Below are positions 8,852 to 11,331 of a stretch of 64,000 nucleotides of DNA, piece by piece. Where the stretch lies: positions 1,178,001 to 1,242,000 of the forward strand of contig NZ_JABTEX010000001.1 in assembly GCF_015711645.1 (NCBI RefSeq). The letters are read 5' to 3'. The position numbers and the translations under genes are program-made. Each line of letters opens with the position of its first letter. Position 1 is the stretch's first letter. The DNA is from Planomonospora sp. ID82291. GTDB lineage: Bacteria; Actinomycetota; Actinomycetes; Streptosporangiales; Streptosporangiaceae. The notes beneath the pieces are model-generated. The model saw only the letters and a program-made list of their open reading frames with translations, was not told the origin of the DNA and ran no database searches.

Positions 8852-9886
8852 ATGCCTGCCGACACCTCCGACCCGCTCGCCGCCCTGGGCCTGACCCCCG
8901 CCCAGACCGCGCTGTACGACGCGGTGCTCCGGCTGCACCGCGCCACCTGCGCCAAACTGGCCGAGGCCGTCGGCGACCCGCCCGAGTCGCTGCACCGCGA
9001 GCTGACGACCCTGGTACGGCTCGGCGTGGTCGACGAGCAGGCCGGGGAGTACCTCGCACGGCACCCGGCCGCGGCCCTCGGCCGGCTGATCGCCGACCGG
9101 CTGGACCACCTCGCCGAGGAGAGCCGCAGGATCGACGCGGTGCTGGGCTCGATCCGCCGCCTCGTCCACCAGTACGACGCCGGCCGCGACCAGCAGACCG
9201 GGCAGTTCCCGGTCGAACTGGTCGGCGGGGCCGACGAGCTCTACGAGAGCGTGATCGGCATGGCGGTCCAGGCGCCCCCGCTGCGGCTGCTGACCGCCGT
9301 CCCGGACCGGCGGACGATGAGCGACTTCACCCAGCGCTACGCCGACCAGTGGATCGCGGCCCAGCACCGGGGCCTGCTCTCCTGCCGCACCCTCATCCCG
9401 GCCGACCTGCTGCAGATGCCCGGTCTGCCGGAGAAACTCGTCCGGTTCGAGCGCGCGGGCGCGCGGATCCGGACCGTCGGCTCGGTGCCGAGCTGGTTCC
9501 TCGTCGCCGGGGACGAGGTGGCCGGGCTGCCCGCCCGGTGGGGCGGCGCCCTGGCCGAGAACGCCTACCGCTTCCACCTGGTCCGCGCCTCGGTGGTGGT
9601 GGCCGCGCTGCGCACGCTGTTCGAGGAGCTGTGGGCGCGGGCCGCGCCCCCGCCGTGGGCCCGCACCGACGACGGCGTGGTCCGGGTGCTCCGGCTGGCC
9701 TCGCAGGGCGTGGGCGACGAGGCGATCGCCCGGCAGCTCGGCGTCTCGGTCCGGACCGTCCGCGCCCGCTTCGCCGGCGCGATGGCCGAACTGGGCGCGC
9801 AGTCCCGTTTCCAGGCGGGCGTGGAGGCCGCCCGCCGCGGATGGCTCGCGGAACGCCCGGGTTCGGACCCTGCCCGGCACGCCTAG
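8852..9886 (+). CDS. Transcriptional regulator with N-terminal TrmB-type and C-terminal LuxR-type HTH
   Basis: The 344-residue protein begins with a TrmB-like winged helix (LGLTPAQTALYDAVLRLHRA, residues 10-60), has a middle ligand/sensor-like region (PVELVGGADELYESVIGMAV, VRFERAGARIRTV), and ends with a LuxR-type HTH (LASQGVGDEAIARQLGVSVR then TVRARFAGAMAELGAQSRFQ). This architecture is common in Streptomyces and relatives, where such proteins are usually orphan regulators. The start at 8852 has CCAGGAG upstream; the frame remains open upstream only because of GC bias. The target and signal are unknown. It precedes the DUF5319 gene by 16 bp. Confidence 0.85.
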   Translation: MPADTSDPLAALGLTPAQTALYDAVLRLHRATCAKLAEAVGDPPESLHRELTTLVRLGVVDEQAGEYLARHPAAALGRLIADRLDHLAEESRRIDAVLGSIRRLVHQYDAGRDQQTGQFPVELVGGADELYESVIGMAVQAPPLRLLTAVPDRRTMSDFTQRYADQWIAAQHRGLLSCRTLIPADLLQMPGLPEKLVRFERAGARIRTVGSVPSWFLVAGDEVAGLPARWGGALAENAYRFHLVRASVVVAALRTLFEELWARAAPPPWARTDDGVVRVLRLASQGVGDEAIARQLGVSVRTVRARFAGAMAELGAQSRFQAGVEAARRGWLAERPGSDPARHA

Positions 9887-9902: not shown

Positions 9903-10280
9903 GTGCTGGACGACGTCCCTCGCGACCCGTTCGCGGACGACCCCGACGACCCGGCCGCCGCGCTGGGTGATTCCGACGACCCCGAACCCCTGACGCCCGC
10001 CGAGCGCGACGAGGCGGTCACCGACCTCGCCGACGTGGAGGTCTTCCGCTCCCTGCTCGAACCGCAGGGGGTCTTCGGTCTGGTCCTCGACTGCCCGGAG
10101 TGCGGCGAGCAGCACTATTTCAACTGGGAGCTGCTCCGCGGGAACCTGCGCCAGATGATCGACAACGGCAGGCCGCAGGTGCACGAGCCGGCCTACCGGC
10201 CCGATCCCACCGACTACGTGAGCTGGGACTACGCCCAGGGCTACGCCGACGGCGTGATCGACACCGAGGAGAGGCGCTGA
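9903..10280 (+). CDS. DUF5319 family protein
   Basis: The 125-residue acidic protein has an N-terminal Asp/Pro-rich segment (DDPDDPAAALGDSDDPEPLT) and a conserved C-terminal region with a CPECGE zinc-knuckle-like pair, HYFNWELLRGNL and a [13 protein letters not shown] motif. These are marks of a small actinobacterial family of unknown function that lies by guaB and the SigD/ShbA sigma gene. The single CxxC cannot by itself fold a classical zinc finger, so dimerisation or another role is possible. GTG start. Its 3' end overlaps by 40 bp the convergent anti-sigma-like gene. Confidence 0.8.
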   Translation: MLDDVPRDPFADDPDDPAAALGDSDDPEPLTPAERDEAVTDLADVEVFRSLLEPQGVFGLVLDCPECGEQHYFNWELLRGNLRQMIDNGRPQVHEPAYRPDPTDYVSWDYAQGYADGVIDTEERR

Positions 10281-10474
10281 CCGGCGGCGCGGTCGTGGTC
10301 GAGATCCCGGTCGACGTCCGCGATCAGCGCTGAGAGCAGCCGGACCACGTCGTCCGCGGCGGGGACGGGCTCCCTGCGCGAGAGCGCCTGCACCAGGGCC
10401 TCGGTCCCGGCCACGGCCGGGTCACCGTCCGGCCCGTACCGCCGGGCCGGACGCCGTGGATGGACCGCGGTCAA
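10241..10474 (-). CDS. Small RsdA-like anti-sigma factor candidate, no membrane domain
   Basis: The 77-residue product contains [20 protein letters not shown] then [15 protein letters not shown], which resembles the sigma-binding segment of the anti-SigD factor RsdA (LLDALA-RE-DDALAALL-WRDDL in Mycobacterium). RsdA is normally a long membrane protein; here the frame ends soon after the segment with no hydrophobic stretch. The TTG start overlaps the sigma gene stop (TTGA), so translation would be coupled. Codon use is like that of its neighbours. It overlaps the 3' end of the DUF5319 gene by 40 bp on the other strand. The role is inferred from position and a short motif. Confidence 0.5.
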
Positions 10475-11100
10475 GCCGTCGACTCCAGCTCGGCCAGTGC
10501 CCGCAGCCTGGCGAGCGCCCGATGCTGGGCGACGCGAACCGCACCCGGTGACATACCGAGTACATTACCCGTCTCCTCGGCCGACAGGCCCGACACCACC
10601 CTGAGCATCAGCAGCTCGCGCTGGTTGTCCGGAAGGCGGGAGAGCAGTCTGCGCGCGTGCTCGGCCTCGATGTAGCGCACCACGGTCTCCTCCGGCCCCG
10701 GGCCCTCGTCGGGCCCGTCGGGGAGGTCCTGGGTCGGCACGGCCGAGCGCACCGAGCTGCGCAGCGCGTCGGCCACCTTGTGGGAGGCGATGCCGAAGAC
10801 GAAGGACGCGAACGGACGCCCCATGTCCCGGTACCGGGGCAGCGCGGACAGGACGGCGATGCACACTTCCTGGGCCACGTCGTCCGCAATGTGATATTGG
10901 CCGGAAACCCGGCCCAGGCGGGCACGGCAATAGCGCACCACCATCGGGCGCAACTGCGCGAGCAGGGATTCGATCGCACCGCGATCCCCCTGAACGGCGA
11001 GGCTCGTCAGATCCTTGAGGTCGTCTTTGTGGACGACCTCGTCAGACCTCGTCGCAAGCCTTACCCCACTCTTGGCGTCGGCGACGCATCCCTCGGTCAC
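10471..11100 (-). CDS. RNA polymerase sigma factor, SigD/ShbA type (ECF)
   Basis: The 209-residue product has sigma region 2 ([20 protein letters not shown], then [20 protein letters not shown] and [19 protein letters not shown]) and region 4 ([20 protein letters not shown], then [20 protein letters not shown] and [10 protein letters not shown]). It matches the SigD (Mycobacterium) / ShbA (Streptomyces) group, which lies near groESL and guaB. ShbA transcribes the principal sigma gene hrdB in Streptomyces; the same role here is inference. The GTG at 11100 has no clear ribosome binding site and the alternatives are poor, so the start is uncertain. The downstream small anti-sigma candidate overlaps its stop. 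Confidence 0.9.
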
Positions 11101-11331
11101 GTAGGCATGATGCCCGCACTGATCGGACCTGTCGTCATGGCAAACGGCTACGGATTGGTCACATTGAGACGACGACAGCGAACGGTAATCAACCGGCTAC
11201 ACTGAGATTTTTCGCACCACCGGAAATTTCAGCGGATTGCCGAATATGACTGCCATTCGTTATATAAGCCGCAAGCCGGAACGCCGGTCGCACCGGACGC
11301 TTTGCCGCTCTTTCGGATTTCCCCGAAAAGC

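Follow-up and report, generated by a model that had tools for sequence, protein, structure and literature searches.

The ShbA/SigD-type ECF sigma factor gene of Planomonospora sp. ID82291 is followed by a 77-codon frame that is a real gene under protein-level constraint. The stretch of DNA analysed here, 64,000 nucleotides of contig NZ_JABTEX010000001.1, is referred to as the window. The product of the 77-codon gene is homologous to the sigma-binding N-terminal domain of RsdA, it has no membrane segment, and this short form is found in a single clade of relatives. We consider it probable that the gene is an orthologue of rsdA of which only the part for the sigma-binding N-terminal domain is left, encoding a cytosolic anti-sigma factor that would bind the sigma factor together with which it is made. 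The features of the locus are collected in Table 1.

Table 1. Features at and around the short rsdA-like gene, in window coordinates.
Feature	Position	Strand	Basis
Convergent DUF5319 gene	9903..10280	+	PF17252, 168.1 bits
40 nt in which the tail of the short gene overlaps the 3' end of the DUF5319 gene	10241..10280	both	sequence
Short rsdA-like gene, 77 codons, TTG start, TAG stop	10241..10474	-	frame reading, PF16751, relatives, constraint, family profile
PF16751 RsdA_SigD_bd-like segment, residues 20-53	10316..10417	-	Pfam match
TTGA shared by the TTG start codon of the short gene and the TGA stop codon of the sigma gene	10471..10474	-	sequence
ShbA/SigD-type ECF sigma factor gene	10471..11100	-	profile matches
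GGAG, Shine-Dalgarno-like, 8 nt before TTG, within the sigma gene	10483..10486	-	sequence
Conserved block (A)TGTGACCA(A/T)TCCGT	11146..11165	-	upstream of the sigma start, also in related loci

The sigma gene is identified as ShbA by NCBIfam (NF007230, 283.2 bits against a cut-off of 209). A preliminary description, made from the letters of the window, had proposed that a 77-residue frame overlaps the stop codon of this gene by TTGA, and the frame is indeed there, beginning at TTG. An NTGA overlap of this kind occurs at the start of 47 of 64 short forms and 44 of 59 forms with a membrane segment. Amongst the 47 overlapping short forms, 30 have TTGA and 17 GTGA, and 40 are preceded by a Shine-Dalgarno-like motif. 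In some relatives without the overlap the aligned short product begins at an ATG, 74-92 nt past the sigma stop, and this supports the TTG start of the window frame.

That close relatives keep the frame, a point on which the preliminary description had made its reading depend, is borne out. The short frame is present in all 30 of the nearest loci (own genome and 29 relatives) and in each of the 35 loci that come from named Streptosporangiaceae genera, and no broken copy was seen in either set. The named-genus set (L035-L068 and L091, with five of its 35 sequences identical to ones among the 30 nearest loci) covers Streptosporangium, Planobispora, Sinosporangium, Acrocarpospora, Sphaerisporangium, Microbispora, Planotetraspora, Nonomuraea, Herbidospora, Sphaerimonospora and Microtetraspora. 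Pooling the short frames gave 64 rows and, once repeats were dropped, 59 different sequences, across which the frame is kept through insertions and deletions. With the last 14 codons cut off, pN/pS of the short frame is 0.43 (bootstrap 0.37-0.50) over 28 disjoint pairs limited to 3-35% difference over at least 75 nt, as uncorrected counts on short sequences. For the same pairs the two wrong frames have values of 1.25 and 2.09 and the sigma gene has 0.24, and differences in the short-frame pairs fall 181/127/324 on codon positions 1/2/3. GC at the three codon positions is 0.82/0.56/0.91.

The preliminary description had also likened part of the frame to the sigma-binding region of RsdA, to be checked against the Pfam family PF16751. 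This is the only Pfam family that the window frame matches; the segment was found as expected (E 0.0098) but its 16.6 bits fall below the family cut-off of 26.7. A six-frame search of the whole genome with PF16751 returned the window frame as the best of four matches (E 0.08, none above the cut-off), and since it also gave weak matches in 8 of 14 control genomes the whole-genome score by itself is poor evidence. Of 38 short forms, 35 have a PF16751 match at E <= 0.1, the best at 2.2e-07. When ten proteins (eight short, two membrane forms) were scored singly, nine matched at E <= 0.01, none of the ten reached the cut-off, and one of the membrane forms (L077) gave no match.

Family profiles relate the frame to RsdA. 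Profile A1, built from 38 short forms, finds as its best match among all PDB sequences chain 3vep_X, which is M. tuberculosis RsdA (Rv3413c), at E 0.011. Profile A5, built from the N-terminal parts of 40 short and membrane forms, finds the same chain at E 2.7e-07 with the next chain at 0.26, in agreement with the proposed RsdA-like region. Against the genome of the strain itself, A1 has one match at E <= 0.01, the window frame (8.9e-29), and A5 finds the window frame at 1.8e-12 with the next match, at 0.029, covering only profile positions 64-92. There is thus no second RsdA within reach of these profiles, and a separate full-length RsdA, which according to the preliminary description would, together with a lack of binding, count against it, is not visible in the genome to PF16751, A1 or A5. 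Across the order, A1 has matches at E <= 0.01 in 127 of 200 genomes. The gene has two properties of an rsdA gene, the homologous sigma-binding N-terminal domain and a position directly after the SigD/ShbA sigma gene in the window and in relatives. The membrane helix and extracytoplasmic domain are missing from its 77 residues, in which the best 19-residue mean hydropathy is 1.10, as the preliminary description had supposed in assigning it no membrane domain. Since the membrane part is missing, we describe the product as RsdA-derived with the membrane part lost and not as a full RsdA.

We read the stretch after the sigma gene in 196 loci, 177 after removal of repeats. These comprise 65 short forms without a membrane segment, 59 forms with one, 47 loci with none and six open at a contig end. 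The 47 include one locus where the contig ends (L072) and four (L152, L169, L183 and L184) that by eye may hold diverged forms below the threshold, and without these five the count is 42. Membrane forms were called at a hydropathy threshold of 1.6 over a 19-residue stretch, with L101 and L185 set to membrane by hand. No short form has such a stretch above a mean of 1.58, and the membrane forms have at least 1.66, except L101 and L185 at 1.43.

On a quick tree of the sigma factors, rooted at the midpoint only, the short forms make up one clade, the Streptosporangiaceae (66 rows, 64 short and two with none; SH-aLRT 98). The two without the gene are L190 and L076, so it is dispensable in places. 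The only short form outside the clade is L178, which we rejected as a second origin because its frame breaks off and a membrane-like stretch follows in a different one, probably through a frameshift or a sequence error. Short forms are 50-114 aa long, with one exception of 244 aa in Nonomuraea endophytica (L051). On the sister Thermomonosporaceae side the membrane forms measure 149-345 aa, and in further families of the class they reach 393 aa. No RsdA frame is present at the locus in any of the 28 rows of the Nocardiopsaceae clade, nor between the sigma gene and guaB in six of six loci of the Streptomyces-like family f20, which we take to be Streptomyces from the look of its HrdB. Two metagenome-assembled genomes are exceptions by title: L069, titled Streptosporangiaceae, carries a membrane form and falls on the Thermomonosporaceae side, and L092, titled Nocardiopsaceae, carries a membrane form of 165 aa and is placed outside the clade of 28 rows. 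The short clade stands among membrane-form lineages and in this fits the class of soluble anti-sigma factors whose cytosolic domain came from a membrane-bound ancestor. Because the membrane forms are widely spread, the change would have run from membrane to short form, subject to the midpoint rooting.

By eye, the best conserved part of the short product is its tail, SSVSITPS(A/T). This tail lies opposite the end of DUF5319, a convergent gene whose antisense strand gives the last 12 codons of the short gene and its stop, an overlap that is absent from the preliminary description. The overlap was measured in 34 of the 64 short loci and has a length of exactly 40 nt in 33 of them and of 7 nt in the remaining one; of 32 membrane forms measured, one (L088) overlaps DUF5319. 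The tail letters are also found in L076, L190 and L191, all without the gene. Being antisense to DUF5319 and present in these gene-less loci, the conserved tail and the stop are not independent evidence for the gene and we rejected them as such. With its tail antisense to a conserved neighbour, a gene this small is easily missed or misjudged. The overlap does suggest a route for the truncation, namely a deletion between the sigma-binding domain and DUF5319.

Several further observations concern this end of the locus. The membrane form of L088 (Actinocorallia) is shortened to 149 aa and ends 40 nt inside DUF5319, and L191, which adjoins L088 on the tree, has lost the gene; a shortening may also have happened in this Actinocorallia kind. 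The short forms at L059 (3624-3893) and L022 (2213-2452) repeat a tail-like stretch (QRRSS...), as if the DUF5319-derived end had been duplicated. Beside DUF5319, at 8852-9886 (+) of the window, is a gene with a weak TrmB-like N-terminal part and a LuxR-type C-terminal helix-turn-helix.

In a model of the window peptide (mean pLDDT 75.1, pTM 0.46), residues 19-32 and 42-65 form two helices and the ends are loose. Foldseek with this single-peptide model gave six matches to solved structures at E <= 10 and none at E <= 0.001; the link to RsdA is therefore one of sequence profiles and gene position. In the solved M. tuberculosis complex of SigD and RsdA, the RsdA contact is reportedly with sigma region 4. 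Nocardiopsaceae keep the region 4 consensus of RsdA-bearing Streptosporangiales at 0.71 and Streptomyces-like rows at 0.77, against 0.72 in outer RsdA-bearing lineages. Region 4 therefore has no loss of conservation in the groups where RsdA is missing, and at these similar levels we see no sign of relaxed binding.

The mechanism that we propose begins with a deletion, presumably in an ancestor of the Streptosporangiaceae, that would have taken away the membrane helix of RsdA together with its outer part, leaving the sigma-binding part fused to the DUF5319 antisense strand. The product would be a small cytosolic peptide of the two-helix kind modelled above. By homology to the M. tuberculosis complex, it would bind the sigma factor and keep it from RNA polymerase. 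Since its start lies inside the sigma stop codon, both proteins would come from one mRNA in a near-fixed ratio. In corynebacteria, RsdA tethers sigma-D to the membrane and is a substrate of the proteases MarP and Rip1 (PMC11175481). Having no membrane part, the short form could not be released by MarP/Rip1-type cleavage, and the level of free sigma would depend on the ratio and on peptide turnover or a partner, rather than on envelope stress; the peptide would in effect set a threshold. The site-2-protease family PF02163 is present in the genome of the strain, so the loss of the membrane part is not explained by loss of that whole family. More tentatively, and with the chances in our estimate a little below even, one family may have rewired SigD/ShbA from a switch driven by envelope stress and intramembrane proteolysis to a ratio-set cytosolic circuit, with an anti-sigma factor that can be as short as 50 residues and takes its tail and stop codon from a neighbour's antisense strand. 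If so, one gene neighbourhood would display the path from membrane-bound through soluble to absent control.

Three other explanations must be weighed against this cytosolic anti-sigma factor. That the open frame and its conservation are by-products of overlap with the sigma and DUF5319 genes would account for the best conserved segment being DUF5319 antisense and recurring in loci without the gene. However, the constraint was measured with that stretch cut off, the similarity to RsdA falls outside it, and 59 different sequences retain the frame through insertions and deletions; with pN/pS at 0.43 and the A5 match to 3vep_X, we regard this explanation as refuted and give it hardly any weight. 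It is also unlikely, though less so, that the gene is a remnant on its way out, a truncated copy that still makes a weakly sigma-binding peptide but is decaying. Decay would fit the absence of the gene from the Nocardiopsaceae clade, the Streptomyces-like rows and, inside the short clade, L190 and L076, as well as a pN/pS higher than that of the sigma gene and the variable length of the short forms. Yet the reading frame is clearly constrained, 64 of 66 clade rows retain the domain, and decay should leave broken copies, none of which was seen in the 30 and 35 loci.

The peptide might instead bind the sigma factor without inhibiting it, as a co-folding or stabilising partner or as a helper that shapes promoter choice, and we think this improbable. 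Production from the same mRNA in a near-fixed ratio, as the overlap suggests, the absence of a sensor part and the retention of the domain while membrane control was dropped would all suit such a partner. On the other hand, the homologous RsdA domain is an inhibitor, as deletion of rsdA in C. glutamicum gives constant sigma-D activity (PMC11175481), and in other lineages the sigma factor functions without any such gene.

The short form resembles RsdA of Mycobacterium and Corynebacterium (Rv3413c; PDB 3vep) in its place after the SigD/ShbA gene, in the NTGA overlap found in most loci and in the homologous sigma-binding domain. Unlike RsdA, which is 149-393 aa long and is cut free by site-1 and site-2 proteases, the 77 aa short form (50-114 aa in relatives, one 244) has no membrane helix or outer domain and cannot be released in this way. 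Truncation of membrane-bound proteins is a recognised path to soluble ECF anti-sigma factors (PMC8103513), and the short form shares with these a cytosolic anti-sigma domain separated from its membrane helix. It differs from them in being built on RsdA_SigD_bd and in taking its tail and stop from the antisense strand of a neighbour. What appears to be new is a soluble form of RsdA, of which we found no report in the parts available of the open-licence literature on RsdA, ShbA and anti-sigma factors. The short gene offers a natural 50-77 aa candidate inhibitor of ShbA/SigD-type sigma factors, and because one syntenic locus has a membrane anti-sigma factor, a soluble one or none, it becomes possible to test how the sensor of a signalling system is lost when its sigma factor is retained.

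The preliminary description had further pointed out that in Streptomyces this sigma factor controls hrdB, and the hrdB link was not supported here. ShbA of Streptomyces drives hrdB as well as its own gene, and its regulation has been called unknown (PMC9205884); the SigD promoter motif is given as GTAAC(A/G) and GAT (PMC6338062). We searched for GTAAC followed after 13-20 nt by GAT or GAA. A query of 20 genomes, nine of them without a match, gave 11 hrdB loci, one of which could not be oriented. The 10 readable loci (five from the own genome and short-form relatives, four from Nocardiopsaceae-kind genera and one, G001, with a membrane form) have no SigD-type site within 500 nt upstream of hrdB. 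In contrast, both Streptomyces-like hrdB loci found (L222 and L223; eight genomes queried, six without a match) have such a site (GTAAC...CGAT), and Streptomyces-like genomes, with their known ShbA control of hrdB and a homologous sigma gene beside guaB, have no rsdA frame after that sigma gene (six of six loci). Upstream of the sigma gene itself, a block of the form GTrACCAwTCnnT is present in 99 of 110 loci, among them all 65 with short forms, whereas 2200 base-shuffled controls gave 0. This block may be the sigma factor's own promoter or the site of another regulator.
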